Shown here in pieces: positions 1 through 23,123 of a stretch of 23,351 nt of DNA (position 1 is its first letter; every line of letters begins with the position of its first letter). The notes below the pieces were generated by a model. It made no database searches and was not told where the DNA came from. It saw only the letters and a program-made list of their open reading frames with translations. This stretch comes from a virus. Both the position numbers and the translations under genes were made by a program. The stretch covers positions 1-23,351 of IMG/VR virus record IMGVR_UViG_3300010885_062341. The stretch is one strand, 5' to 3'.

Positions 1-449
1 ACCGTGTTGCTAACTTGATCGCTCAGCGTACACGTCGTGGCGCTGGTAACTGGGCTGTTGTTTCTTCAGCAGCATTGACTGTTCTGCAGTCAGCTACAAC
101 TTCAGCTTTTGCACGTACCACTGAAGGTACATTTGAAGCACCTACCAACACTAAGTTTGTTGGTACACTGAACGGCGCAATGCGTGTGTTTGTTGACAGC
201 TATGCTGCTGACACTACACCTGTGCTGGTTGGTTACAAAGGTTCTTCAGAAGCAGATGCAGCAGCATTCTACTGCCCATACATTCCTTTAATGTCAAGCG
301 GTGTTGTTCTGGATCCAACAACATTCGAACCAGTCGTGTCATTTATGACTCGATATGGCTACATCGAACTTACTAACACAGCAAGCAGCTTCGGTAACGC
401 AGCTGACTATCTGGGTGAGATCGCTGTTTCGAACCTGTCGTTCTCCTAA
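1..449 (+). CDS. 23: Major capsid protein, gp23 family (3' part only)
   Basis: This is the C-terminal part of a T4 gp23-type major capsid protein, the hexamer-forming shell subunit of the head. The reading frame is open from base 3, so the window starts inside the gene. The TTG at 15 is an internal Leu codon, not a start. Recognisable gp23 features are the ATRRG-like segment (here RTRRGAGN), a hydrophobic stretch ending in LQSA, GTLNGAMRVFVDSYAA, VGYKG followed by AAAFYCPYIPL, and the terminal block with FMTRYG. The stop is TAA at 447-449, followed directly by a hairpin terminator, so this is the end of a transcription unit. The N-terminal region, including the prohead protease cleavage site expected in this family, lies outside the window. 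Confidence 0.93.
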   Translation, partial: RVANLIAQRTRRGAGNWAVVSSAALTVLQSATTSAFARTTEGTFEAPTNTKFVGTLNGAMRVFVDSYAADTTPVLVGYKGSSEADAAAFYCPYIPLMSSGVVLDPTTFEPVVSFMTRYGYIELTNTASSFGNAADYLGEIAVSNLSFS

Positions 450-1408: not shown

Positions 1409-1416
1409 TATAAATA
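1409..1416 (+). promoter_or_regulatory. T4-type late promoter (TATAAATA)
   Basis: The octamer TATAAATA exactly matches the T4 late promoter box recognised by the phage sigma factor gp55 with the gp33/gp45 co-activators. It lies 87 bases upstream of the structural gene at 1504 and would start transcription near 1422, giving a leader of about 80 nucleotides. The position in the divergent gap between the minus-strand gene and the plus-strand virion genes fits. Confidence 0.85.
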
Positions 1417-2889: not shown

Positions 2890-4260
2890 ATGACTACTGT
2901 AAAGCGTGTTTCTGGCAATTATGAAATTACCACCCTAGGAAATACCAATGTCAACATTACCACGGGCACGGTCAATGTTTCGGGTAATGTTATATCAGCA
3001 AATCTGGCTGTTTCTGGTATTGTTTCATTTCCCACAGCCAATATCACAGCAAACAATATCACAAGTAACAGCATTACCTCGGTGGGCAATTTTATTACCA
3101 CTGGTACATTTATTGGTGATGGATCGGGATTAACCAATATTCCGGCTGGCAATGCATCAGCTAATCGTATTCAAAGCGGTACTTCCAAAGTTGACTTACC
3201 TAATCTATCTGGTAATATCCAAATGGATGTTGCTGGTGTAGCCAACGTAATGTTGCTCACCAGTAGTGGTGCGATTCTTCCTGGTAACATTACCACAGGA
3301 AACATTTTAACCAACAACTATTATTTTGCCAACGGAGTTCCATTTGCCAGTGGTGGAACGGTAACATTTGATGCACAAAACACAACTCCAGTTGGATCAA
3401 CTGCTGGAGATTTTTGGTTTAATACCAACAACGGTATTGTATATCAATATGTTGATGACGGTGATAGCGATCAATGGGTTGATATCACAGGTATTGCCAC
3501 CCCGCCTTCTACAACTTCCACTGTGGCAAACACAGTAGTTCAACGTGACACCAACGGATCAATTACTGCAAACGTAGTTTCTTGTACTGACACAGCAGCA
3601 ACTGGCAATATCAGCGGAACATACGTTTTAGGTAATGGTGCATTGTTGACTGGTATTCAAACTTCTGTGCCAACAGAAATTATTTCAGGTACTAGTTTAG
3701 TCAAAATAGTAACTGCCAGTGGAACTATTCAAGCCAACGTAGCAGGAACTACAATGGCATCCTTTACCACCAATGGATTTCAAGTTGGAAATATTGTAAA
3801 TCAAAATGCCACTGGTGTTGGCAATATTGGTAATGCATCAAATTATTTTAACAGGGTTTTTGCCACATCAACCTCGGCGTTGTATGCTGACTTGGCTGAA
3901 ATTTACGAAGCAGATGATGATTATGAACCAGGCACTGTGCTGATATTCTTTGGCTCCAAAGATGTCACAACAACTAGACGTGATCATGATCCTAGAGTGG
4001 CAGGAGTAGTTTCTACTAACCCAGCTTATCTAATGAATACTAAAACTTCTGGAGTACCATTGGCGTTGACTGGTCGAGTACCATGTAAGGTGCAAGGTCC
4101 CATTGCCAAGGGAGATTTAATTACTACCAGCAACACTCCGGGCGTGGGGCAAATTGTTGACTCTAATTTTTGGGTTCCTGGTTGTGTAATTGGTAAAAGT
4201 CTTGGAGTTATTGAAGATGACAGCATTCAAGAAATTGACATTGCTGTTGGGAGGTATTAA
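2890..4260 (+). CDS. Tail fibre protein with C-terminal ADLAE/VGRY domain
   Basis: This 456-residue fibre-type protein has a Shine-Dalgarno AAAGGA (2877-2882). Its N-terminal half is made of Asn/Thr/Gly/Val-rich beta repeats (TGN, GNI, NVSGN), then a GDGSGLTNIP module near residues 77-86 and a related GNGALLTGI module near 250, both common spacers in phage fibres. A short VGSTAGDFWFNTNNG segment lies in between. Residues about 311-456 form a C-terminal domain with GNIGNASNYF, STSALYADLAEIYE, YEPGTV, VAGVVSTNPAYLMN, PLALTGRVPCKV, KGDL and a final VGRY. This domain recurs in the proteins ending at 22279 and 23123. It resembles the trimerising, self-processing chaperone ends of phage appendages (Peptidase_G2 or S74 type), which is an inference. 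Its stop codon overlaps the next start (TAATG). Confidence 0.85.
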   Translation: MTTVKRVSGNYEITTLGNTNVNITTGTVNVSGNVISANLAVSGIVSFPTANITANNITSNSITSVGNFITTGTFIGDGSGLTNIPAGNASANRIQSGTSKVDLPNLSGNIQMDVAGVANVMLLTSSGAILPGNITTGNILTNNYYFANGVPFASGGTVTFDAQNTTPVGSTAGDFWFNTNNGIVYQYVDDGDSDQWVDITGIATPPSTTSTVANTVVQRDTNGSITANVVSCTDTAATGNISGTYVLGNGALLTGIQTSVPTEIISGTSLVKIVTASGTIQANVAGTTMASFTTNGFQVGNIVNQNATGVGNIGNASNYFNRVFATSTSALYADLAEIYEADDDYEPGTVLIFFGSKDVTTTRRDHDPRVAGVVSTNPAYLMNTKTSGVPLALTGRVPCKVQGPIAKGDLITTSNTPGVGQIVDSNFWVPGCVIGKSLGVIEDDSIQEIDIAVGRY

Positions 4261-5288
4261 TGGCGTTTTTCCCTACAAGTCCAACCAACGGTCAACAAGC
4301 CAATGTTGGAAATATTACGTATCAATTCAACAGTACTGCCAATGCCTGGAATCGCGTTGGCACTACGGTCACGCAATTAATTGATGGAATCACAGTTAAT
4401 ATAACCGGTAATATCAATGCGACCGGAACTGGACAACAGACATTTGCAGGACGAATCAGCACCGGCGGCAATGTAGCAGCCACCGGTAATATACTTGGTG
4501 CTAGTATGATTGCCAGTGGTGCTGTTATAGCCACAGGAACCATTACAGGCGGAAATTTAACTACTGTAGGTACGGTTACCTCGGCATTGTTAAATGTGTC
4601 TACTCAAATTGCTGTTGGTGCGTCTACTTTTGCGCCCACACAGTTGTCAACGTTTAACGTTGTGGCCAGTAATGCTGTGACTGCCCCATACGGAGCATTG
4701 ACAACGGTAATCGCTTCCAGCATAGTCACTACAAATATCAACAGCACCACTGCTGCATTTTCAGGGCTGGTAACAGCCTCAGCAAACGCCAACGTCACAG
4801 GTAATGTCAATACCGGAAATGTCAACGCCACCGGCAATGTTGCAGGAACATACGTGTTAGGTAATGGTGCATTTTTAACTGGTGTAGTCACAGGTGGTGG
4901 TGGGGGTACTGGCAATCGCGCCAATGTCGCTATCACTACTTCAAGTATCGCTAATGCTGCTTATTATACTGGATCAGTGACATTGGCCAAAGGCTACACT
5001 ATCTACAAAATTACTACCACAGCAGCAAGTTGGATTAGAGTGTATACCAATGCCGCAGCAAGAGTAGCCGACGCTACACGAAGCCAAACAACAGATCCTC
5101 AACCAGGCGCAGGCGTCATCGCCGAAGTAATTACTACTGGTGCAAATATTGTGTTGATGAGTCCAGCAACTATTGGTTTTAATGATGAGAATCCGGTCAG
5201 CAATACTATTCCCATTGCAGTGACAAATCTCAGTGGTACCACTCGTACGATTACAGCAACATTCACTTATCTTGGATTAGAAACTTAA
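4260..5288 (+). CDS. Tail fibre/virion protein with repeat stalk and beta-rich head
   Basis: This 342-residue protein starts at the ATG overlapping the previous stop (TAATG), with a strong GGGAGG Shine-Dalgarno at 4249-4254, so translation is probably coupled. The N-terminus (PTSPTNGQQANVGNITYQF, then a W) is a short cap seen on many phage fibre proteins. Residues about 40-205 are Asn/Thr/Gly repeats ending in the VLGNGAFLTGVV module, followed by a glycine-rich hinge. The last 120 residues or so form a separate beta-rich domain with YTIYKI, SWIRVYTNAAARVADATR, DPQPGAGVIAEVITTG and a TFTYLGLET end. I recall this domain at the C-terminus of many T4-like cyanophage structural proteins. It is probably a distal fibre tip, but the target is unknown. 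One base separates it from the first protease gene. Confidence 0.82.
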   Translation: MAFFPTSPTNGQQANVGNITYQFNSTANAWNRVGTTVTQLIDGITVNITGNINATGTGQQTFAGRISTGGNVAATGNILGASMIASGAVIATGTITGGNLTTVGTVTSALLNVSTQIAVGASTFAPTQLSTFNVVASNAVTAPYGALTTVIASSIVTTNINSTTAAFSGLVTASANANVTGNVNTGNVNATGNVAGTYVLGNGAFLTGVVTGGGGGTGNRANVAITTSSIANAAYYTGSVTLAKGYTIYKITTTAASWIRVYTNAAARVADATRSQTTDPQPGAGVIAEVITTGANIVLMSPATIGFNDENPVSNTIPIAVTNLSGTTRTITATFTYLGLET

Positions 5289-5289
5289 C

Positions 5290-7350
5290 ATGGCCATCAA
5301 CATCAACAGTGATGCATCGGCAAGGGTGTTACAAGAGCTGGGAGAAAATCCAGATCCAGTTGCACTGTTGTCACATGCTCGACAGTATCTTGGGTATCAA
5401 GAACCGCTAATGTTAGACATCGAAGACCGTGTTAGATATGTTGTGACTCTTCAAAATTTAAATGAGCAAGACAATTTTTATAATGAAATGGAAAGCACAG
5501 GGACTCGTGGATATGCTCCTGATCGAGTAGTTGAATGTGCCGAACGCATGCCAACCCTTCGTAGTACTACCTATCTGTTGTCAACAATAGAAGCAGCACG
5601 GCTAGAATTAGATCCTAGGGTGATGGCGGTTGAAGCACACCCTGAAGTATCGGGCATCAAACCTAGACCGTTTGGGTATGAGTATTCTGACGCATGGGAT
5701 AAAAGTGGTGTTGTAACTTCACCGATGAAGAACTGGGGTCTGTTACGGTCAGCCAATCGAGCACAGATTTCCGGATGGGGCAGCAATGGTACTGCCAATC
5801 AAGCTGCTCAAATTGTCACTACCAGCAGTGGTAAAAATGTTGATGTTGTGATATTTGATGGAAATATCACGGTACCCGGGCATCCAGAATTTTCAGTCAA
5901 CGTTGATGGAACTGGCGGAAGTCGGGTAAATCAAATCAACTGGTGGGCCTATAATCCTCAGGTCACTGGGGAAGCTGCTGGTGTTTACAATTATTCTGCC
6001 GGCAGCGAAGGCAACAACGGGCATGGCATACATGTAGCAGGAATCATGGCCGGAAACACACAGGGATGGGCTAGAGACTCCACCATTTATAACATCAGTC
6101 CCTATGGTGAACAGACCAACGGGGTAACCACCCCAACAGCAGCACAACTGGTGGCCTACATCAGATACTGGCACAACAACATCAAAGGAATCAATCCTGC
6201 CACTGGTAGAAAAAATCCCACTGTGGTAAACATGAGTTTTGGACAGTTTTCAAATTACTTGGTTGGGCCAACCCAAGACACTAGATTTCCCAATGTCACC
6301 GAAATAAATTATCGAGGGATCACTACCAGTTATCCTGCATCTGCCCCTGCTGGACAAACTGCTCTACAGGCAATATATAACGGTAATTGGTCGGCGCAGA
6401 CATTTTTAAACAATGGTTTTAACTTATACCCTGAATATTACAATCTATATGGGATAGCTTTGATTTTTTCCACTGGGCAAGATACCGCAATGTCCGAGGC
6501 AATTGTTGACAGTATGAACGCCAATGAAGGTATCATTTGGTGTGCGGCTGCTGGAAATAACTGGGACACAGCAGGCATGAACAGTGACAGTCCGGACTAC
6601 AACAATACAAATAATAATTTATATGCTATATTTCTTAATATCATACCCTTGTACCAAACCAGATATCCATACAGATTGCCAACACCGGCATTTGCAGCCA
6701 CTGGCACTCCAAATACCAATAACTGGAAAAAAGTTATGGTCACCGTAAACATTGGCACAGAGACTGGTGAGGGAGTAGATGGCACGTCTAGCGTAGGCAG
6801 CGCCTGTGATATCTGCAGTCCGGGCACTCAGATTATGAGTGCATACAACACCGGAGTTTCAGATCCTAGAAATGCCAACTATTATCTAAACAAATTAACT
6901 GGGACCAGCATGGCTAGTCCCCAAACCGCTGGGTTGATAGCCTGTATGATGGAACAATACCCAAATGCCACACAAATGCAAGCACGAACTTACATCAAAA
7001 ACTTTGCCAACAACGGGGTAATGTTTGACGCCAACATTCAATGTCCGCCAAATAATCCTGTTTCTAGTCTGCGCGGTGCTCCCAATCAAGTGGCAACCTA
7101 CTACCCTGATCGACCGCCCACCGGAAATCCCTGGCCACAGGCAAGATCTTGGTTAAGACCTGCCAGCGGTGCTATGTATCCAAGACCTACAATCCAACGT
7201 CGTAATGTTGATCTTTCAGCGGTGTCAGCATCGGCCTTAGACAAGGCATTTAGAGTCAATGTTAGATATGGTGGTACATCCGGGGTAGTGGTATCCACCA
7301 CCGACACTATAAATATTCAAAATATTCAAAATAATCCACCAAACCCTTGA
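5290..7350 (+). CDS. Subtilisin-like serine protease (S8), virion-associated, copy A
   Basis: This 686-residue protein carries a complete S8 catalytic set: Asp190 in VDVVIFDGN followed by HPEF, His245 in GHGIHVAG, oxyanion Asn423 in AAAGN, and Ser540 in GTSMASP. Residues about 48-118 end in DPRVMAVEAHPE, like the end of an inhibitor I9 propeptide, so the enzyme may fold with its own prodomain. There is no signal peptide, so export by the host Sec system is unlikely. The region between His and Ser is longer than in secreted subtilisins, with large Asn/Tyr/Pro-rich insertions. A tail of about 120 residues follows the catalytic Ser domain, with no Calx-beta repeats, unlike the next two proteases. 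It starts one base after a fibre gene and has only a weak ribosome binding site. It may digest host surface protein or process virion proteins; both roles are inferred. It is not the T4 prohead protease (gp21), which belongs to another family. Confidence 0.92.
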   Translation: MAININSDASARVLQELGENPDPVALLSHARQYLGYQEPLMLDIEDRVRYVVTLQNLNEQDNFYNEMESTGTRGYAPDRVVECAERMPTLRSTTYLLSTIEAARLELDPRVMAVEAHPEVSGIKPRPFGYEYSDAWDKSGVVTSPMKNWGLLRSANRAQISGWGSNGTANQAAQIVTTSSGKNVDVVIFDGNITVPGHPEFSVNVDGTGGSRVNQINWWAYNPQVTGEAAGVYNYSAGSEGNNGHGIHVAGIMAGNTQGWARDSTIYNISPYGEQTNGVTTPTAAQLVAYIRYWHNNIKGINPATGRKNPTVVNMSFGQFSNYLVGPTQDTRFPNVTEINYRGITTSYPASAPAGQTALQAIYNGNWSAQTFLNNGFNLYPEYYNLYGIALIFSTGQDTAMSEAIVDSMNANEGIIWCAAAGNNWDTAGMNSDSPDYNNTNNNLYAIFLNIIPLYQTRYPYRLPTPAFAATGTPNTNNWKKVMVTVNIGTETGEGVDGTSSVGSACDICSPGTQIMSAYNTGVSDPRNANYYLNKLTGTSMASPQTAGLIACMMEQYPNATQMQARTYIKNFANNGVMFDANIQCPPNNPVSSLRGAPNQVATYYPDRPPTGNPWPQARSWLRPASGAMYPRPTIQRRNVDLSAVSASALDKAFRVNVRYGGTSGVVVSTTDTINIQNIQNNPPNP
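7308..7315 (+). promoter_or_regulatory. T4-type late promoter inside the end of the first protease gene
   Basis: TATAAATA exactly matches the T4 late box. It overlaps codons for Thr-Ile-Asn-Ile near the C-terminus of the first protease and lies 51 bases before the ATG at 7367, with GGAG at 7357-7360 as Shine-Dalgarno. It would let the duplicated proteases be expressed separately from the upstream genes. Confidence 0.7.
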
Positions 7351-9899
7351 CATAACGGAGTAGATCATGGAAGAAAAATTTTTTCAGTTGGGCACATACT
7401 CCGAATCTCAATGGGATACATTAAATCTTGAGTTAGTTTCTACTGCTACGATATCAAACTTTGTGCCTCAACGTGCGGTGATCTGTGTGGATGAACTGAT
7501 GCACAGTGCCACTCGGGGTACCTATCTCTTGACTCAAGACGAAGCAGATGTACTCAAAAATGATCCTCGAGTAAAGTGGATCAACATTGACTACAAAAGT
7601 TATCCAGAAACATACCAACCGCCTCCAGACGAACTTCATTGCGTTCCTGTGGCCGTAGTTAATAGATGGGCATCAGCCAAAAAAGGCATTAGACAAATTA
7701 GTGGATTGCCCGATCCAGCCACAAATGCCGACGCCAATAGAATGGGATATGGAGTTATACGACATCGACAACTTGCAGAGACCTGGAAGCAAAGTGCTGT
7801 TTCTCCCAATACCACTATATCTACAAATGTAAGTGTGTATGGCACGGGCAAACATGTAGATGTGATTGTAGCTGATGATGGCGGCGGGTGGCATGGACAC
7901 CCAGAATTTTACAACAATCCTATATCCACAGTTGATCAATCAGAAATTGAAAAACCAAATGGATATGCTGGTGGCAATAGATTGCCCGGGAACGGCAAGT
8001 GTGATGTACTTGATTTGGTGTTGGATGCACCTTATTATCTAGATCCAGATTGGTTTGATCTCAGCCCAGAAACACGATTAATCACACGGTGGGACGGCAC
8101 CAAAGTGCCTGTGGAATCCTTTGCTCGGGCCTGGTGGGACGATACAAGTCAACGGTCGCCTGCGTTTGCTGCATTTGGCAATGTGAGCATTGGATCTTCC
8201 TACACTAGGCAGATCTGCAACGGCACGAACATTGCCAAGCCGCCAGATGCAATCGGGCAACATGCTACTCCGTGCTTGGCATTGACATTTGGTCGTACAC
8301 AAGGATGGGCTTATAATTCTAACAAATGGAGTTTTAATTTTTATGGCCAAAACGGCACTGGCTTTGAACAAGGGTGGGATATGGTTAAAATTTTCCATCA
8401 AGCCAAGCCTATCAATCCGCTGTACGGTAATAAAAATCCAACTATCATGTCCAACAGTTGGGGGTTTCGCGCCAACAAAGATCCTGAAGGTCAACCTTGG
8501 TATTTTACTCATAGATCAACAACTAGCAATCCCTATAACTCAGAGAGTGGTATTTTCTGGCTAAGCAATATGGGTCAGACGGGAGATGCCGGACGATGGA
8601 AATCAGAGATGAAACCTAATTCTATAACCACAGCCCTGGATGAACTTATAGCAGCCGGTGTAATTGTTGTAGCCGCGGCCGGAAACAGCAATCAAAAACT
8701 AGTAACATCATCACACCCTGATTATAACAACTATATTACTACGGTGCAATATGGCAGTCTAATAAATTCTAATTTCACTGAATTTGGTTACAATGTTTAT
8801 GGGACCACAAATCGCAGAGGATACCCACAACAAGGCGGTGCCTATGTTGATGGTTTTGGCAATAGAGTGTATCCAGTTATACAAATTGGAGCTCTTGACG
8901 ATGGTTTTCGTGACAACAAAGAAAACAAAGTCACATACAGCGATCGAGGCAACGATATTGACGCATATTTTGCAGGTGATGGAACACTGGCAGCAAATCA
9001 TTCTTATGCTAGTGCTGGTCCAAGAGCAGACACTTACACTGGACTTACTCAACCAGCCACAGATGTAGGTTTTGGTGGCACCAGTGCTGCCTGTCCTGGT
9101 GCCACAGGGTTTATTGCCTGTGTGTTGGAGTATAATCGTACCTGGGGTTGGCAAGATGTAAAAACTTGGTTAGCAACTTTAACAGTTCCTGGCACCGGTG
9201 ATTTTTATTATGGTGTAGAATCAACAACCTGGTTTGATGGCAATTGGAATGATTATGAGAGCCTTGAGGGTGGTTTACCCAGAGTATTGTATCAAACAGC
9301 CGACTATTACAATGACAATCTTGCCGGTCCAGTTGCAGGATTCTCTCGTAAACCCGCTATTATCAACGAAGGTGGCGGGGCTGCTGGATTTTTTAATGTA
9401 ATGACTGCCAAAGTTCCCACCAATACCCTGATATATTGGACTATGTTACATGGTACAACCACTGGCCTTGATTTTACGAGTCCATCAGGAACAATTTTAA
9501 TTGAAAATGATCGTGGTATTTTTGCTATTGATCCCGTGGCCGATTTACTCACCGAAGGCGTGGAGACTTTTCAAATTCAGCTGCGATTAAACAGCAGCAG
9601 TGGTACAGTGATTGGTACCAGTGGCACAGTGTCAATTGGAGATACTTCACTTGGCGAAGGTGGAGCAAGTTATGCTTTGAGCGGGTATGCCGGAACAATC
9701 ATCGAGGGCGGCAATACCACGATCATTGTTACCACCACCGCAGTCTCCAATGGTACCACATTGTATTGGACTATCAATCATTCATCTACCACTGCTGCTG
9801 ATTTTGTAGCACAAGAGGGAGCTTTTACCATAAATTCCAACACTGGATCGTTTGTCATCACCACAAGAGTGACCTAGAAATATCAAATTTTAGTTCTTG
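7341..9899 (+). repeat. Tandem gene duplication, left copy
   Basis: This is the left copy of a roughly 2.6 kb direct duplication whose right copy is 9918-12536. Similarity starts at AAACCCTTGAC, runs through GGAG-TAGATC and the ATG, covers the whole protease gene and ends with 29 identical bases across and after the stop (9871-9899). The two coding copies have diverged by many substitutions and small indels, so the event is not recent. The outer ends remain nearly identical. Confidence 0.88.
7367..9877 (+). CDS. Subtilisin-like serine protease (S8) with Calx-beta-like tail, copy B
   Basis: In this 836-residue protein the catalytic residues are Asp170 (VIVADDGGG then HGHPEF), His299 (GQHATP), oxyanion Asn440 (AAAGNSN) and Ser573 (GGTSAACP). 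The gap of about 129 residues between Asp and His is much larger than in subtilisin and contains a conserved insertion with PNGYAGGNRLPG and DPDWFD. Residues about 33-80, ending in DPRVKWINIDY, resemble an I9 propeptide. After the protease, residues about 658-761 form a Calx-beta-like domain (INEG, TLIYWT-type strand, LTEGVETFQIQLR, GTVSIGDTS), and a second one (768-836) stops abruptly after FVITTRVT, half way through the repeat. There is no signal peptide. It is a close paralogue of the next gene, and a late promoter lies at 7308. It is probably a virion-borne protease acting on host surface or matrix protein (inference). Confidence 0.92.
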   Translation: MEEKFFQLGTYSESQWDTLNLELVSTATISNFVPQRAVICVDELMHSATRGTYLLTQDEADVLKNDPRVKWINIDYKSYPETYQPPPDELHCVPVAVVNRWASAKKGIRQISGLPDPATNADANRMGYGVIRHRQLAETWKQSAVSPNTTISTNVSVYGTGKHVDVIVADDGGGWHGHPEFYNNPISTVDQSEIEKPNGYAGGNRLPGNGKCDVLDLVLDAPYYLDPDWFDLSPETRLITRWDGTKVPVESFARAWWDDTSQRSPAFAAFGNVSIGSSYTRQICNGTNIAKPPDAIGQHATPCLALTFGRTQGWAYNSNKWSFNFYGQNGTGFEQGWDMVKIFHQAKPINPLYGNKNPTIMSNSWGFRANKDPEGQPWYFTHRSTTSNPYNSESGIFWLSNMGQTGDAGRWKSEMKPNSITTALDELIAAGVIVVAAAGNSNQKLVTSSHPDYNNYITTVQYGSLINSNFTEFGYNVYGTTNRRGYPQQGGAYVDGFGNRVYPVIQIGALDDGFRDNKENKVTYSDRGNDIDAYFAGDGTLAANHSYASAGPRADTYTGLTQPATDVGFGGTSAACPGATGFIACVLEYNRTWGWQDVKTWLATLTVPGTGDFYYGVESTTWFDGNWNDYESLEGGLPRVLYQTADYYNDNLAGPVAGFSRKPAIINEGGGAAGFFNVMTAKVPTNTLIYWTMLHGTTTGLDFTSPSGTILIENDRGIFAIDPVADLLTEGVETFQIQLRLNSSSGTVIGTSGTVSIGDTSLGEGGASYALSGYAGTIIEGGNTTIIVTTTAVSNGTTLYWTINHSSTTAADFVAQEGAFTINSNTGSFVITTRVT

Positions 9900-9905
9900 T
9901 AAATA
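9898..9905 (+). promoter_or_regulatory. Late promoter-like box (TGTAAATA), degenerate
   Basis: One mismatch from TATAAATA, 38 bases before the ATG of the third protease, just outside the right edge of the left duplicate. It could be a weakened late promoter or chance; the surrounding gap is AT-rich. Confidence 0.3.
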
Positions 9906-9917
9906 TAAGTAATTCAT

Positions 9918-12536
9918 AAACCCTTGACTTAGTGGAGTAGATCATGGAAGAAAAATTTTTTCAGTTAAGCACTTATTCTGAACCCCAATGGGATGCACTA
10001 AATCTTGAGCTAGGGTCTGTTGGCTCTTTATCAAGTACTGTGCCTCAACGTGTGGTGGCCTGTGTGGATGAACTGATGCACAGTGCCACTCGAGGCACCT
10101 ATCTCTTGACTCAAGACGAAGCAGATGCACTCAAAAATGATCCTCGAGTAGAGTGGATCAACATTGACTACAAAAGTTATCCAGAATATCGTATACCAGC
10201 AGAAGAACTTTATTGCACTGTGCCTACAATTAACAGGTGGACATCAAGTCCAAAGGCCACTCGAAAAATCACGGAGTATGGAACACTTGCGGCCACAGGG
10301 GAAGTCAATAGAATGGGGTATGGAGTCTTACGACATCGACAATTTGCAGAGTACTGGAAGCAAAATAATACTGCTCCCACCACCAAGGTGCCCACAAATG
10401 TAAGTGGTGTGTATGGTACTGGCAAACATGTAGATGTGATTGTAGCTGATGATGGTGGCGGGTGGCATGGACATCCAGAGTTTTACAACGATCCCATACG
10501 AACTAACAACATCAAAGAGCTAGTTGAAAAACCAAATGGATATGCTGGTGGCAATAGATTGCCCGGTAGCGGCAAATGTGATCTACTTGATTTGGTGTTG
10601 GATGGGCCCTACTATATAGATCCTGATTGGTTTGATGCCAGCCCAGAAACACGATTAATCACACGTTGGGATGGCACCAGGGTACCAGCAGAAGGCGTCG
10701 CCCGGGCCTGGTGGAAAGATGCAAGTCGGCGTTCGCCTGCGTTTGCCTCAATAGGTACAGTGGCAATACCTGACGACTACTCTAGAGCTCAAAACAACGG
10801 CAATAACATAGCACGAGCGCAGTATGGAGATCATGCCACCCCGTGTTGTGCGTTGGCATTTGGCCGTACACAAGGATGGGCGTACAATTCCAACAAATGG
10901 GCTTTTAATCTGTTAAGCCATTCCCAGAACTTCTTTGAACAAGGGTTTGATCTAGTAAAAATCTTCCATAAGAACAAGCCCATCAATCCGCTTTACGGTA
11001 CTAGAGATCCAACCGTCATGTCCAACAGTTGGGGTTTTCGAGACCGCGCCAGTAAGATGCCTCGATCAGACAGCCCCAATTATTATACTCATAGATCAAC
11101 AGCTGCCGTGCAATATAAAAAATTTGATGACAATCTGTGGCTGAGTCATATGGGTGAGACGGGCGACGGTGGTCGATGGAAGTCAGAAATGAAACCTAAT
11201 TCTCTGACCGCGGCTCTGTCTGAACTTATACAGGCCGGTGTGATTTTTGTGGTTGCAGCCGGAAACAGCAATCAAAAACAAGTGCTGCCCGGCCACCCCG
11301 ACTACAACAACTATATTGCCAAATCTCCCACTCATAGTCTATTAGAGTCAAGCTTCACCGAATTTGACATTCCGGTATATGGGACCACAAATCGCAGAGG
11401 ATTCCCACAGCAGGGCGGTGCCTACATTAAGAACGGAGAAAGAGTATACCCAGCTATAAACATTGGATGTCTTAACGATACTTTCCTTGAAGGCAAAGAA
11501 AACAAAGTTAATTACAGCGACCGAGGCAATGGCGTTGATGCATATTTTTCGGGTCACTTGGTGCTGGCAGCAAATAACAGCAGGGAACAGGGCAAATCGA
11601 AGGGTATTTTTGGTGAGCCTGAGAGATTGGTAGTCGGTAACAGAGCAGACACTTACGCTGACTACGGCGGTGGCGACAGTTACACGCTGCCCGCCACAGA
11701 TGTGGCGTTTAATGGCACCAGCGCCGCCTGTCCCGGAGCCGCAGGGTTTATTGCCTGTGTGTTGGAGTATAATCGTGCCTGGGGTTGGCAAGATGTAAAA
11801 AATTGGATCGCAGCGTTGACTCCCCAAGACCCAGGTGATTTTTATTACGGGGTAGAATCAACAACTCCAGATGACAAAAATTGGGAGAATTATGAGAGTC
11901 TTGAAGGCGGTACACCCAGAGTACTGTATCAACTAGCAGAATATTACAATGACAATCTTGCTGGACCAATTGCCGGATTCTCTCGTAAACCGTTCACCCT
12001 TGAGGAAGGTGCCAGTGGAAGATTTAATGTGATGTCTGGTGAGATCAACAACGGCACCACGTTGTATTGGACTATTTTACATGATACAACTACCGATGCT
12101 GATTTTGTGAGTACATCAGGATCGTTCACAATAACTAATGATCGGGGGTTGTTTGACGTCAATACCACTGCCGATAAAGCCACCGAAGGCACACAGAATT
12201 TTCGAATCCAGCTGCGATTAGACAGCACCAGTGGCACTGTAATTGGTACCAGTGATTTGGTACCAATCACTGATACTTCAATTGGCGTAGGCGGCGATGT
12301 GCAGTCTTATGCTGTGAGCGGGTACTCTGAGATAATAAATGAAGGTGGCAAAACCACGGTCGTTGTTACCACCACTAATGTTCCCAACGGTACCACGTTG
12401 AATTGGGCTATCAATCATGTATCTACTACTGCTGCTGATTTTACGGCACAGAGTGGGTCTTTTACTGTGAATTCCAACACTGGATCGTTTGTCATTACCA
12501 CAAAAGTGACCTAGAAATATCAAATTTTAGTTCTTG
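9918..12536 (+). repeat. Tandem gene duplication, right copy
   Basis: This is the right copy of the duplication described at 7341-9899. It begins with the same AAACCCTTGAC that in the left copy encodes the last codons and TGA stop of the upstream protease gene. Here that fragment is non-coding, so it looks like a fossil of the neighbour carried along during duplication. It ends with the same 29 bases (12508-12536) that follow the left gene. Confidence 0.88.
9944..12514 (+). CDS. Subtilisin-like serine protease (S8) with Calx-beta-like tail, copy C
   Basis: This 856-residue paralogue of the preceding gene starts with the same MEEKFFQL and the same GGAG-TAGATC-ATG initiation region. Catalytic residues are Asp169, His297 (GDHATPCCAL), Asn441 (VAAGNSN) and Ser593 (NGTSAACP); none is lost. 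The I9-like propeptide end is DPRVEWINIDYKS around residue 66. It differs from copy B by small insertions, notably about residues 543-580 (after NNSREQGKSKG) just before the Ser motif, and by substitutions in the Asp-His insertion, which suggests divergence in substrate pocket loops. A Calx-beta-like domain lies at about 678-780 (TEGTQNFRIQLR, LVPITDTS), followed by a second, incomplete one (788-856) that ends at FVITTKVT exactly as in copy B. Both copies being intact argues for selection on the enzyme activity. Confidence 0.92.
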   Translation: MEEKFFQLSTYSEPQWDALNLELGSVGSLSSTVPQRVVACVDELMHSATRGTYLLTQDEADALKNDPRVEWINIDYKSYPEYRIPAEELYCTVPTINRWTSSPKATRKITEYGTLAATGEVNRMGYGVLRHRQFAEYWKQNNTAPTTKVPTNVSGVYGTGKHVDVIVADDGGGWHGHPEFYNDPIRTNNIKELVEKPNGYAGGNRLPGSGKCDLLDLVLDGPYYIDPDWFDASPETRLITRWDGTRVPAEGVARAWWKDASRRSPAFASIGTVAIPDDYSRAQNNGNNIARAQYGDHATPCCALAFGRTQGWAYNSNKWAFNLLSHSQNFFEQGFDLVKIFHKNKPINPLYGTRDPTVMSNSWGFRDRASKMPRSDSPNYYTHRSTAAVQYKKFDDNLWLSHMGETGDGGRWKSEMKPNSLTAALSELIQAGVIFVVAAGNSNQKQVLPGHPDYNNYIAKSPTHSLLESSFTEFDIPVYGTTNRRGFPQQGGAYIKNGERVYPAINIGCLNDTFLEGKENKVNYSDRGNGVDAYFSGHLVLAANNSREQGKSKGIFGEPERLVVGNRADTYADYGGGDSYTLPATDVAFNGTSAACPGAAGFIACVLEYNRAWGWQDVKNWIAALTPQDPGDFYYGVESTTPDDKNWENYESLEGGTPRVLYQLAEYYNDNLAGPIAGFSRKPFTLEEGASGRFNVMSGEINNGTTLYWTILHDTTTDADFVSTSGSFTITNDRGLFDVNTTADKATEGTQNFRIQLRLDSTSGTVIGTSDLVPITDTSIGVGGDVQSYAVSGYSEIINEGGKTTVVVTTTNVPNGTTLNWAINHVSTTAADFTAQSGSFTVNSNTGSFVITTKVT

Positions 12537-14653: not shown

Positions 14654-17600
14654 ATGGCAAACGGACCAAACCTGCTGAGTGGCCGAGTTCCAGTAGTTCC
14701 GCTTGATCAACTCACTGCAGATCGATATCAATTTTTAGCTTTGGGGCAAGCCGAGCCTAATTTAGGCAACGGTGTTGCCAACAGCATCCTCACAATACAA
14801 AGCAACGGTAACAGAGTTTGGGCTAATTCTGTGGCGCTTACCACTGGCGCATTTTCTGGCAACGTCACTGCTGCAAACTTCGTTGGTAATATCTCAGGTA
14901 ATCTTGTTGCACCAGGCTCAAACACACAGATTTTGTTCAACGACAGCGGGCTAATTTCCGGCAACGCTGCGTTGACATTTAACAAAGCCACTGCCCTTCT
15001 AACAGTTACTGGTGATTCAATTATCACTGGTAATTTAACAGTTCAGGGCAATGTCAGTTACATCAATGTAACCAACCTTAACATACAAGATCCCATTGTG
15101 GGCATTGGCCGCGGAGCAAACAACTCATCGCTGACCACCAACGATGGCAAGGATCGCGGCGAACAACTTTGGTACTATACAGCAAGCGAAAAATCAGCAT
15201 TTATAGGATACGACAATTCTGCTGCCAACATAATTTTAGCCACAGATGTTTCAATTGCCAGCGAAATTGTTACAGTCAACAATTATGGTAACATCACTGT
15301 TGGTAATATAAGTGGACAATTTATCGTTGCATCTGCAAATATCAACGCCAACAATTTAATTGTATCAAGCAACATTTCAGCCACAGGCAATGTATCAGGA
15401 AGTTATTTCTTGGGCAATGGGCGACTTTTGACGGGCATTGACGCAACACTAATCTCAAGTGGCACATCTAACGTAAGAGTTACCACTGCCAATGGTAATA
15501 TAGCCGCCAACGTAGGCGGTACTGCAAATGTTTGGGAGTTGGCTACAACCGGCCAATATGTTTCAGGTGTAATTTCTGCCACAGGTAACATCACAGGTGG
15601 TAACTTAACCACCACAGGTACGGCCAATATTGGCACGTTGGCCGTAACCGGCACTGCTGCTATAACAGGCAATACCACTGTCACTGCCAACATTGCAGGT
15701 GGCAACTTAACCACCACAGGTACGGCCAATATTGGCACGTTGGCCGTAACCGGCACTGCTGCTATAACAGGCAATACCACTGTCACTGCCAACATTGCAG
15801 GTGGCAATATCACCACTGCGGGATTGATCACAGCCACCGGTAACATCACAGGTGGCAACTTAACCACAACTGGTACGGCCAATATTGGCACGTTGGCCGT
15901 AACCGGCAATGCCAGTGTTGTTGCTAATATCGCAGGTGGTAACATCACAACTGCAGGATTGATCACAGCCACCGGTAACATCACTGGTGGCAACGTAGCA
16001 ACCTTAGGTACGGCCAACATTGCCACTCTTGAAGTCACAGTTCTTGCTAATATCAAGTCTACAACCGCAGCAACATCAACCACAAGTGGCGCATTAAGAA
16101 CTGCAGGCGGGGCGGGTATAGTAGGCAATGCCTATATTGGTGGGTTAGTAACAGCCACAGGTAATGTCACAGGTGGTAACTTAACCACCACAGGTACGGC
16201 CAATATTGGCACACTGTCTGTGACCGGCACTGCTGCAATCACTGGCAACACCACTGTCACTGCCAATATCACAGGTGGCAACTTAACCACAACTGGTATA
16301 GCCAACATTGGTACACTGGCTGTGACTGGCACTGCTGCCATAACCGGCACTGCTGCAATCACGGGCAACACCACAGTCACTGCAAATATTAGCGGTGGCA
16401 ATATCACCACTGCGGGATTGGTCTCTGCAACTGGCAATGTCACAGGTGGCAACTTAACCACCACAGGTACGGCCAATATTGCCACTCTTGAAGTCACAAC
16501 ACTAGCTAATATCAAAGCCACAACTGTATCCACATCAACCACAAGTGGTGCATTAAGAACTGCTGGAGGTCTTGGTGTAGTGGGCAATGCTTACATTGGT
16601 GGATTGATTACTGCAACCGGCAATGTAACAGGTGGTAACTTAATCACAACTGGTACGGCCAACATTGGTACACTGGCTGTAACCGGCACTGCTGCCATAA
16701 CTGGCAATGCCACTGTCACTGCCAATATCACCGGTGGTAACTTAATAACCACAGGTACGGCCAACATTGGTACATTGGCCGTAACCGGCAATGCCACTGT
16801 TGTTGCTAACATCGCAGGTGGTAACATTACCACTGCAGGATTAATTAGTGCAACTGGAAATATTACAGGTGGCAATCTTGTCACAGCTGGTAGAGCCGCT
16901 GTCACAGGAAATGTCAATGGCAATAATTTAATTGCTGCTGCTAACGTTGAAATTCTAGGCAACAAAATTACAACAGGTACCACAACTGGGTTGTTGTTTG
17001 CGCCTGGTAATGTGAGTTTGACATCAGGTAACCTTATTGTCAACGGTGGGTACATCTACAGTCAAAACGGCGACACTGCTATTGTTCTAGTCAACAATGG
17101 TGAAATTGGTAGTATTGGAATTCAAAACAATCTGCAAGTTGGTAAAGATGGAGCAGGTAACCTTGACGTAGCTGGATATGCTAATTTAACCAGTGATGTA
17201 TCAGTGGGTGGTCAGATCACTGTGACTGGAAACGTTTCTGGGGCAAATATCAATACTGCTGGGTTGATTAGTGCAACTGGTAACATCACCGGTGGTAATT
17301 TAATAACCAGCGGTCGCGTTGTTGCCACCGGTAATATCAATACCACAGCCAATATCGTAGCTGCCAATGTAGTCACTGCCAACATTAATAGCAGTGGTGG
17401 TATTTTGATTACCACAAGCGGTAACAATAACATTGAGTTGAATCCTGGTGGCACTGGTAACATCGTTGTTGACAACACTTATATCAATGGGCTTGTTGAT
17501 CCTGTGCAGGATCAAGACGCTGCTACAAAATACTATGTTGATACTTTAGTAACCACAGGTATCAGCTATCATGACCCAGTCGTTGCTGCCACAATATCTA

Positions 17601-20600
17601 ATCTAGCTGTGGCCACCAGCGGTACCATTACCTATGCACAACCCAATGGTGTTGCCAATGGTGTTGGTGCAACAATTACCACCACTGGATCATTTAACTT
17701 AATTGATACTGCCAACATTCAAACTGTAGGTTCACGGTTGTTGGTCAAAAACGAAGGCAATGCCGTTCTCAATGGTGTGTATACCTGGGCCAACTCTTTG
17801 ACAATTGTACGTTCAGTTGATGCGGATCAATACGGATCAAACAGTTCTGAACAAGTTGGTATCAACGATTATTTTTATGTACAAAGCGGCAATGTCAATG
17901 CTGGCTCGTCCTGGGTGGTTAACTCTCCCACAGGAATCATTACATTTGGCACCAGCAACATAACTTTTGCTGAATTCAGTCAAGCTCAGCTTTATGGCGG
18001 AGGCAACGGTGTTGATATCAATGGTAGTGTCATATCAGCCAAAGTTGACAACAACACCACTGCATTTGATGGCACTGGCAATATCATTGTCAAAGCCGGT
18101 GCGAATCTAACAACACCCAACATTGGTGCAGCCACTGGTGTGAGTTTGACCACCACTGGTAATATCACAGCCAATAATATCTCTGCCAACAATTTTCTTG
18201 CTGCCACAACAATTGCCGCAACAGGAAATATCACAGGTGGGAACATCAACAGCAATGGATTGGCCAACATTGCGGGCACTGTGGCAACTGGAAATCTCAC
18301 TGTCACTGGGTTTGCCAACGTCTCAGGTAATCTAAGTGCAATTGGTAACATGCGTGTTGGTCAAGATTTAAGTTTTACTGCTGCCTATGCCAATCTTCAA
18401 TACGCAGGAACTGCTAACAGTTACGTTCAATTGGTTGCTCAAAACAAAGACAACGGTTCAGCAGCAAGCACAGACTTTGTGGCCACAGCCGACAATGGAA
18501 CAGACGCAGATACCTATATTGATCTAGGTATCAACAGTTCAGGATACAATCAAGCTGGTTTTGGATTACAAAAAGCCAACGACGGTTATTTGTACGTAGC
18601 AGGAAATACCGCAACTGGTGGCGGCAATCTAGTACTCAGCACATTAGAAAACAATGATATTATTTTCTCAACTGGTGGTGTAGACACCGGGGATGAACAA
18701 GGTCGATTCCAATACGGCAATGGATTCAAAGTCACTGGCAACATTTATTCCACCGGCAATGTACGTGCTCTAAACTTTATTGGTAACCTAATAGGTAATG
18801 TCACTGGTAATCTCAATGTAACTGGTCCAAATACCGGCGTTGTGTTCAATGACGGCGGGGCTGGTAACTCTACCGCAGGGTTTACGTTTGATAAAACTTC
18901 AAACTTAGTCACATCCGCAGGTAACATCACTGCTGTTGGCAATGTCAGTGGAAACTTTATACTTGGCAATGGATATTATCTAACTGGTATTATTACATCA
19001 GTTGCCAACATCAACAATGGCAATTCAAATGTCAGCATACCAGTGGCCAATGGCAATGTCACCATTGGGGTTAGCGGCGTTGCGAATGTAGTTGTTATTT
19101 CTAGCAATACACTGACAGTTACCGGAAATATTCAATCTAATTCTGGGTACTTTATTGGTAATGGTGTTTTTCTAACTGGAGTAGTTGCTACTAGTTCAAA
19201 CAGTACAGGCGTTACAAATATCAACTATGGTGCATCCAATGTGCGCATTGATACACCAGGTGGTAATGTTTCAGCCAACGTTGGTGGCACTGCCAACGTA
19301 TTTGTTATTGCTTCGACAGGAGCAAACGTCACTGGCAATCTTGGTGTCAGCAGCAATGTCAGTGCAAATTACTTTCTTGGCAATGGTGCTTGCCTAACCG
19401 GTGTTATTACATCAGTTGCCAACATTAACAACGGCTCTTCAAATGTCAGCATTCCAGTAACCAATGGCAATATCAATGCCAGTGTTGGTGGCGTTGCCAA
19501 CGTGTTTGTTATTACTTCTGCAGGAGCAAATGTCGCTGGTAATCTTGATGTCAGCAGCAATGTCAGCGCGGCCTGGTTCTTGGGCAATGCCAATGCAACA
19601 AGTCTGACATCAGGCACAGTACCCAGTGGTAGACTTACCGGAACGTATTCAATTAGTATCAGTGGATTGGCTGCTACTGCCAACACAGTCACCGATGCTG
19701 CACAACCTAATATTACTTCAGTTGGCACATTGAGCTCATTGACTGCCACAGGCAATGTCACAGGTGGCAATCTAACAACTGCAGGATTAATAAGCGCAAC
19801 TGGCAATATTTCTGGTGGCAACTTAACCACAGCTGGCAATGTCACAGGTGGCAACTTAACCACAACTGGTATTGCCAATATTGGCACACTGTCTGTAACG
19901 GGCAGTGGCAATGTCACTGGCAATCTTGGGGTTGCTGGCAATGTTGGCGCAAGTTATTTCCTTGGCAATGGATCACAGTTAACTGGTATAGTCGCTGCTG
20001 TTGGTAATAGCATTGCCAACGGAACATCAAGTGTCAACATTCCGGCGGCCAATGGTAATGTCAACACCAGTGTTGGTGGCACCGCCAATGTTCTAGTAGT
20101 GACAGGTACTGGTGCAAACATTGCTGGCACACTTAATGCTACTGGTAATATCACCGGCGGCAACATCACAACTGCTGGATTAATCTCAGCCACAGGCAAT
20201 ATCACTGCTACTGCCAATGTCACAGGTGGTAATTTAACCACTGCAGGATTAGTCTCTGCATCTGGCAATGTCACAGGTGGCAACTTAACCACAGCTGGCA
20301 ATGTCACAGGTGGTAATGTTCTAGCAACTGCTGGCATGGTTAGTGCTCTAAACTTTGTTGGTGCTGTTCAAGCCCAAGTGGGCTCTAGTTTTGCCTACAG
20401 TCTAAATGCTTTTGGTGCTGGGTCTGACACTGGCGCTGTGTACTTACCAGCAGATGCCAATTCAAATGCTATAGTAGCCGGCTATACCATAGTCAGCAAT
20501 ACTGCGGTAACCCTGACAGTTACATCGGCGACTGTTGTTGTTGGTAGTCCTAACTTTGTCCAGGTTGCCACGACCCCAACCGCATCGTCATTTACGTATC

Positions 20601-22310: not shown

Positions 22311-23123
22311 ATGGCAACTCAAGTACAATTTAGACGAGGATCAACAGCTCAAAACGACGCCTTTACCGGCGCCATTGGTGAGCTCTCAGTTGACACTACC
22401 CTCAACATTATGCGTGTTCACGATGGGGCAACCGCAGGCGGGTTTTCAATGGTTGGTGTGACCAATACCCAAACTTTGCTCAATAAAACTCTAAGTAATT
22501 GCTCAATAACCGGCAATGGTGTGATCAATATCACTGCTAATATCAGCGGAGCAAACATTGCTGCTACCGGTACAGCAACTATCACTGGTAATGTCACAGG
22601 TGCTAATTTAATTACTGCTGGTAGTTTAACTGTTAATTCAGGCAATGCTGCTACTGCTATTATAAATGGCGGATCTAATGCTGTGGGCAATATTGGTAGT
22701 TCGTCAAAGTATTTCAACACAGTATTTGCTAAATCAACTTCGGCACAGTACGCCGACTTGGCAGAAATGTATGTGTCTGATGCCATTTATCAGCCAGGTA
22801 CAGTGGTCAGCTTTGGTGGTACATACGATGTCACTCGCACTGAAACATCTGGTGATGTTAGAGTAGCCGGAGTGGTCAGTACTGCTCCCAGCTATTTGAT
22901 GAATACTGAGCAACAAGGTGAATTTGTGTTGCCAATCGCATTGACTGGAAAAGTACCAACCCAAGTCACAGGTACCATTCACAAAGGTGACATGATGATT
23001 TCTGCTGGCAATGGAATCGCTATGGCCTGCGCTACTCCAGCAGTGGGAATGGTAATTGGTAAATCGCTTGAAGAGTTTAGTGGCGAGTCTGGGGTGATTA
23101 ATATCGTTGTTGGACGACTATAA
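22311..23123 (+). CDS. Fibre/receptor-binding protein with Mtd-like N-terminus and ADLAE/VGRY end
   Basis: This 270-residue protein has residues about 3-45 (VQFRRGSTAQNDAFTG, IGELSVDTT, MRVHDGATAGG) that match the short beta-prism N-terminal domain of major tropism determinant-type phage proteins (Mtd_N), a virion attachment cap. A TQTLLNKTLSN segment and a short TGN repeat region (to about residue 100) lead into the shared lead-in segment and the C-terminal domain (126-270) with AQYADLAEMYVSD, YQPGTVVSFGG, VRVAGVVSTAPSYLMN, ALTGKVPTQVTG, KGDMMI, GMVIGKSLEEF and final VVGRL. The same C-terminal domain ends the fibres at 2890-4260 and 14654-22279, so it is likely a trimerisation or self-processing element. 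The ribosome binding site is weak (TAGG at 22298-22301). Its stop overlaps the end of the convergent Nudix-type gene by six bases. Confidence 0.87.
   Translation: MATQVQFRRGSTAQNDAFTGAIGELSVDTTLNIMRVHDGATAGGFSMVGVTNTQTLLNKTLSNCSITGNGVINITANISGANIAATGTATITGNVTGANLITAGSLTVNSGNAATAIINGGSNAVGNIGSSSKYFNTVFAKSTSAQYADLAEMYVSDAIYQPGTVVSFGGTYDVTRTETSGDVRVAGVVSTAPSYLMNTEQQGEFVLPIALTGKVPTQVTGTIHKGDMMISAGNGIAMACATPAVGMVIGKSLEEFSGESGVINIVVGRL
22632..22745 (+). repeat. Shared 114-base segment, copy in Mtd-like fibre
   Basis: Partner of 21788-21901. Near-identity at synonymous positions indicates recent copying or gene conversion between the two adjacent fibre genes. Confidence 0.85.

Follow-up and report, generated by a model that had tools for sequence, protein, structure and literature searches.

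Three consecutive subtilisin-like protease genes in the adsorption gene block of a putative jumbo T4-like phage

What could a T4-like phage do with three subtilisin-like proteases encoded one after the other among its fibre genes? Most of the enzymes known from phage tails act on sugars or peptidoglycan. We examined this question in a window of 23,351 bases, i.e. the whole stretch of DNA that was analysed, from the IMG/VR virus record IMGVR_UViG_3300010885_062341, using the list of its open reading frames (ORFs). The initial annotation had placed three consecutive same-strand S8 genes at positions 5290–12514, inside a phage adsorption block, and both statements were correct: the ORF list and the Pfam Peptidase_S8 domain recovered the three genes (hereafter ORF1, ORF2 and ORF3), a fibre-like gene precedes them, and a connector gene and then further fibre genes follow (Table 1). 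We also detected a minus-strand ORF of 290 aa (499–1371), opposite to all structural genes and without any Pfam or PHROG match, and a small protein (2302–2886) that matched phrog_30607 and showed weak likeness to a sialyltransferase PHROG and to MptE-like proteins, being possibly glycan-related. Finally, three fibre-type proteins (2890–4260, 14654–22279 and 22311–23123) had a common C-terminal region with weak, below cut-off likeness to the autoproteolytic Peptidase_G2 domain; these shared C-termini are possibly self-cleaving ends.

Table 1. Features of the window, with coordinates, strand and the evidence for each assignment.
Feature	Coordinates	Strand	Evidence
gp23 major capsid protein gene, 3' end fragment at window edge	3..449	+	Pfam Gp23, E 6e-44
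TATAAATA, T4-late-promoter-like, 5' of structural gene at 1504	1409..1416	+	exact match
Fibre-like protein, C-terminus weakly Peptidase_G2-like	2890..4260	+	PHROG fibre families; Peptidase_G2 under cut-off
Partner fibre, 342 aa; C-terminal tip domain at about residues 196–342	4260..5288	+	phrog_15343/9627
ORF1, S8 subtilase, 686 aa; I9-like prodomain and catalytic domain	5290..7350	+	Pfam 71.7 bits; phrog_9158
TATAAATA, T4-late-promoter-like, within ORF1 3' end, 51 bp ahead of ORF2	7308..7315	+	exact match
ORF2, S8 subtilase, 836 aa; C-terminal module from about residue 655	7367..9877	+	Pfam 55.6 bits; phrog_9158
ORF2 C-terminal Calx-beta-like module	9332..9877	+	by eye; without Pfam match
ORF3, S8 subtilase, 856 aa; apparent tandem paralogue of ORF2	9944..12514	+	Pfam 46.6 bits; 65.6% to ORF2
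gp9/gp10-like baseplate-fibre connector N-terminus and DUF1565 beta-helix	12562..14298	+	phrog_677/958/17885; Pfam DUF1565
Giant fibre-like repeat protein, 2541 aa	14654..22279	+	repeat sequence; PHROG tail-fibre match at C-terminus
Mtd_N-domain fibre protein	22311..23123	+	Pfam Mtd_N, 33.3 bits, over cut-off

The gp23 fragment was nearest to Sinorhizobium phage Phosso (79%), Vibrio phage 2.275 (76%) and the Pseudomonas PA5oct group (75%), which points to a jumbo T4-like phage. We also considered a cyanophage (Kyanoviridae), but gp23 gave no support for it, its nearest matches being jumbo phages that infect other hosts; psbA was absent from 18 related contigs, many of them fragments. The window connector protein was nearest to cyanophages, and with jumbo-like gp23 beside cyanophage-like connector and fibre proteins the adsorption block has a mosaic appearance.

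All three proteins scored well above the curated Pfam Peptidase_S8 cut-off of 21.8 bits, and they matched the phrog_9158 profile over most of its length (E 1.1e-66, 4.9e-83 and 3e-75 for ORF1, ORF2 and ORF3, respectively). Alignment placed the catalytic Asp, His, oxyanion Asn and Ser at D190/H245/N423/S540 in ORF1, D170/H299/N440/S573 in ORF2 and D169/H297/N441/S593 in ORF3, as the initial annotation had claimed for the four motifs. The motifs of ORF1 were canonical (HGIHVAG, AAAGN, GTSMASP), while those of ORF2 and ORF3 were variant (ADDGGG, HATPC, AAGNSN, GTSAACP), with every catalytic residue still in place. Among 154 distinct homologues, collected with search patterns that did not include the catalytic residues, we found the aspartate in 152, the histidine in 153, the asparagine in 152 and the serine in 147 sequences; the remaining sequences were truncated there, and no substitution was observed. 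The dN/dS values ranged from 0.12 to 0.38 in the same-type S8 pairs with computable values. The invariance of the catalytic residues wherever they were present argues for selection for catalysis, and at the level of sequence it is well supported that the three genes encode active proteases. One homologue (locus L029, 9995–12643) carried an in-frame insert of about 200 aa just before the Ser motif, which was kept downstream; we considered an intein at this place, but the insert sequence gave no support for it.

The absence of a signal peptide from the three proteins, also noted in the initial annotation, was borne out by a hydrophobicity scan: neither ORF1–3 nor 187 homologous N-termini contained a hydrophobic signal-like segment, and the highest 13-residue mean hydrophobicity in these N-termini was 1.38, against 2.76 for the signal of subtilisin BPN'. 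The claimed I9-like propeptide end stood less firmly. It can be recognised by eye, and the N-terminal model of ORF1 had a beta-alpha-beta-beta-alpha-beta fold, the one moderately confident part of that model, for which several of the best-ranked structures were subtilisin propeptides (probability 0.99–1.00, with weak E values of 0.05–0.08); the Pfam I9 domain, on the other hand, had no match in the N-terminal regions even at E 10. The AlphaFold models, each built from an alignment of 13 sequences, were of low quality (pLDDT 46.5 for ORF2 and 33.7 for ORF1); usable matches came only from the catalytic core of ORF2 and the N-terminus of ORF1. In the low-confidence ORF2 model (pLDDT 46), the 27 best PDB matches were all subtilisin-type proteases, with an E value of 3e-6 for the catalytic part. 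The ORF2-type profile matched subtilisin BPN' and furin about equally, and intracellular subtilisins were among the solved-structure matches of the ORF1 profile. The C-terminal module of ORF2 and ORF3 was not named by Pfam, and for this reason the ORF2 module was called Calx-beta-like by eye; its likenesses (35–50%) were found in long proteins of other contigs that matched in the module only.

ORF2 and ORF3 were 66% identical over their length, and both shared about 27% identity with ORF1, in patches. The sequence just 5' of ORF2 was repeated 5' of ORF3 and the sequence just 3' of ORF2 was repeated 3' of ORF3, so that the two genes look like tandem duplicates, and ORF1 looks like a distant relative. 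The dN/dS of the ORF2/ORF3 pair was 0.38. In a related locus with the same gene order (L008), ORF1 (93.6%) and ORF2 (90%) were followed directly by the connector gene and ORF3 was absent; dN/dS between ORF3 and the L008 copy was 0.41. Three S8 genes in a row were not found in any of 188 other loci, with flanks of 6–10 kb or to the contig ends: 180 of those had one copy and 8 had two, the latter corresponding to five contigs once overlaps were merged. The four isolate genomes that were checked whole had one S8 copy each.

Members of the phrog_9158 family were present in cyanophages of the T4-like kind and, within IMG/VR, in no fewer than several hundred contigs. Two related-locus scans of IMG/VR recovered 401 and at least 589 confirmed candidate stretches, respectively, two sets that may overlap. 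Relatives of the trio are widespread in aquatic phages. The S8 peptidase of P-HM1/P-HM2 was mentioned by Sullivan et al. 2010 (PMC3037559), and the P-SSM2 and S-SSM7 records note PF00082 for the cyanophage cluster T4-GC 292. We found no functional study of these S8 proteins in the literature searched. Neither the ORF2/ORF3 tandem duplication nor the earlier records of such genes in cyanophages were noted in the initial annotation; what is new is the trio itself, the family-wide invariant active site, the pairing of each S8 type with its own kind of fibre and the connection to a homologue that bears a virion label.

A survey of S8 genes beside fibre genes, which the initial annotation had proposed, revealed that this pairing depends on the type of protease. 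Where the gene upstream of S8 lay on the same strand (145 loci), the gap between the two was -5 to +15 bp in 134 cases. Most ORF1-type genes (76/81) were located directly 3' of a tip domain like that at the C-terminus of the partner fibre of our window, with a median gap of 1 bp, and 49 out of 71 ORF2-type genes came after a fibre whose tip is of another kind (NGDMIYNTT...), with a median gap of 8 bp. In the reverse direction, tip-domain ORFs were followed by an S8 gene in 89 of 92 cases within the loci, a figure biased upwards by the use of S8 to collect the loci. The downstream protein matched a gp9-type baseplate-fibre connector in 14 of 36 cases. Among the isolates, the S8 gene was immediately 5' of gp9 in S-SSM7, among fibre genes in P-SSM2, and directly 3' of the tip-domain gene in S-WAM2 and S-H38; PSS2, S-CBS2, S-CRES1-3, S-BM3, Sf-CH1b and Nodularia phages had the tip domain, but no S8 gene was detectable in them. 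In our window, ORF2 and ORF3 sit behind ORF1 and not behind their usual fibre type, which counts against a fibre-coupled virion protease. Four other loci (L134, L136, L123 and L126) had ORF2-type S8 proteins of 1200–1885 aa, with the place of the upstream fibre taken by a gene of about 255 aa on the opposite strand.

The proteases had also been described as lying behind late promoters. This held for the site at 7308, directly ahead of ORF2, but the site at 1409 is not directly before any protease gene; 0.65 exact TATAAATA sites would be expected by chance on the plus strand of the window, where we found these two. In the related loci, with a background rate of 0.004 per 120 nt, the exact motif occurred before the fibre gene in 9/130 cases, before downstream genes in 15/137 and before the S8 gene in 1/151. 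We did not retain the late promoters as an argument for the proteases: it is weak in the window, and in the related loci the motif is enriched before fibre and downstream genes, not before S8.

The evidence for a place in the particle came from a homologue and from domain fusions. SSCSM1_228 of Synechococcus phage S-SCSM1, a member of another phage family, is 29% identical to ORF1 and is labelled "(virion protein)" in its record, where we counted 48 such labels. The S-SCSM1 paper gives 45 proteins detected by mass spectrometry, among which it names NMNAT and two lytic enzymes (PMC9602691). In the record these three are labelled as virion proteins and several structural proteins are not, so that, going by the record labels, the label very likely means detection in particles; a protein detected in this way could be a contaminant. 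The S-CREM1 peptidase is not mentioned in the text on the 14-protein virion proteome of that phage. S8 relatives were fused to LamG (in SSCSM1_228), Ig, He_PIG or RCC1 domains or, in S-TIM54, to an esterase, and these fusions would fit a surface-acting virion protein. The S-TIM54 protein (L006, 9998–16417) has 2140 aa, is virion-annotated and combines the esterase, the S8 protease and Ig domains, and in another locus (L036, 9905–13405) the S8 homologue is joined to an RCC1-repeat propeller.

We consider that these genes are best read as encoding virion-borne, fibre-coupled subtilisin-type proteases that cut host surface or matrix protein at adsorption, with a probability of roughly 0.5. The relatives are common, their active site is kept and at least one of them was very likely detected in purified particles, and for these reasons such phages probably have fibres that cut protein and so help them past the protein of the host surface. 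The interpretation offered in the initial annotation stands in part: that the proteases are probably active, virion-borne and fibre-linked is well supported by the invariant residues, the fibre pairing, the adhesive fusions and the S-SCSM1 label, while the cutting of host S-layer, outer-membrane or matrix protein is plausible. The proteases would be made late, in the host cytoplasm and without a signal peptide, and the N-terminal I9-like prodomain would likely hold them folded and quiet until autoprocessing. They would be assembled with the cognate fibre and sit on the tail fibres or the baseplate or close to them, and at adsorption they may cleave S-layer-like or outer-membrane protein, or the extracellular matrix; naming S-layer or outer-membrane protein as the target is speculation. 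The three copies, ORF1 and the ORF2/ORF3 duplicates, would broaden the substrate range. We also propose, tentatively, an exchangeable fibre-plus-protease module in aquatic T4-like phages, in which a subtilisin on a matching fibre tip cuts host surface protein during adsorption and the copy number sets the range of surfaces that can be breached.

The same pairing may also be read as fibre maturation, in which each S8 protein would act while the particle is assembled, on the fibre that it is paired with or on an adjacent tail protein, and then stay in the virion or not. The type-specific, near-zero-distance pairing suggests co-expression and joint assembly, as does the enrichment of the late-promoter-like motif ahead of the fibre and not of S8; but the same tip domain occurs in the phages listed above that have no detectable S8, and a maturation enzyme would not need lectin, Ig, RCC1 or esterase fusions. 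Since the S8-free phages share the tip domain and the S8 proteins bear binding domains of their own, we regard maturation as less likely, though a possible minority explanation. The S-SCSM1_228 virion label would also suit virion-borne proteases that act after adsorption or at release, either clearing periplasmic protein at tail penetration or freeing the progeny from debris or matrix, and the lytic enzymes reported in the S-SCSM1 virion point the same way; this use is improbable, as the genes are linked to fibres and the fibre connector and not to the baseplate hub or spike.

Proteases working inside the infected cell and outside the particle, like intracellular subtilisins, would fit the absence of a signal peptide and the intracellular subtilisins matched by the ORF1 profile. 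The late structural context, the adhesive fusions and the virion-labelled homologue argue against such a role, and we hold it to be slightly more doubtful still. A non-catalytic subtilisin fold, serving as an adhesin or structural knob, has only the structural context in its favour and is very hard to reconcile with four catalytic residues that are invariant over 154 sequences. If the adsorption protease is real, a widespread, always-active subtilisin tied gene-for-gene to fibre tips would mean that proteolysis, too, is a means by which phages gain access to the host surface or breach it, which is relevant for the host range of abundant aquatic phages, and the pairing rule would offer a way to predict which fibre a given protease belongs to.

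Among known systems, the closest are the phrog_9158 / T4-GC 292 proteins of cyanophages (such as P-SSM2 PSSM2_297 and S-SSM7 SSSM7_232), which profile matches (E 1e-66 to 5e-83) place in one family with the window proteins and which are alike in position among fibre and gp9 genes; the isolates checked had one copy per genome, whereas the window has three, together with a gp23 closest to non-cyanophage jumbo phages. S-SCSM1_228 (QFG06492.1) resembles ORF1 in having a putative I9-like N-terminus and an S8 domain and in lying within a fibre block, but it is longer (1411 aa), has two C-terminal LamG lectin domains and is annotated as a baseplate wedge subunit. The D-H-N-S order and the motifs are shared with subtilisins and proprotein convertases (MEROPS S8), which the low-confidence ORF2 model may also resemble in fold; the window proteins differ from them in the missing signal peptide, the large insertions in the catalytic domain and the phage structural context. 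T4 gp21, the prohead protease, is a phage-encoded serine protease of the late region, but its family is unrelated to that of the window S8 proteins and it acts inside the prohead. Finally, polysaccharide depolymerase tailspikes offer an analogy without any claim of homology: the proposed logic would be common to both, with a barrier on the cell surface cleared by an enzyme of the adsorption apparatus, but here the proposed substrate would be protein and not sugar, and the enzyme is a separate polypeptide beside the fibre.
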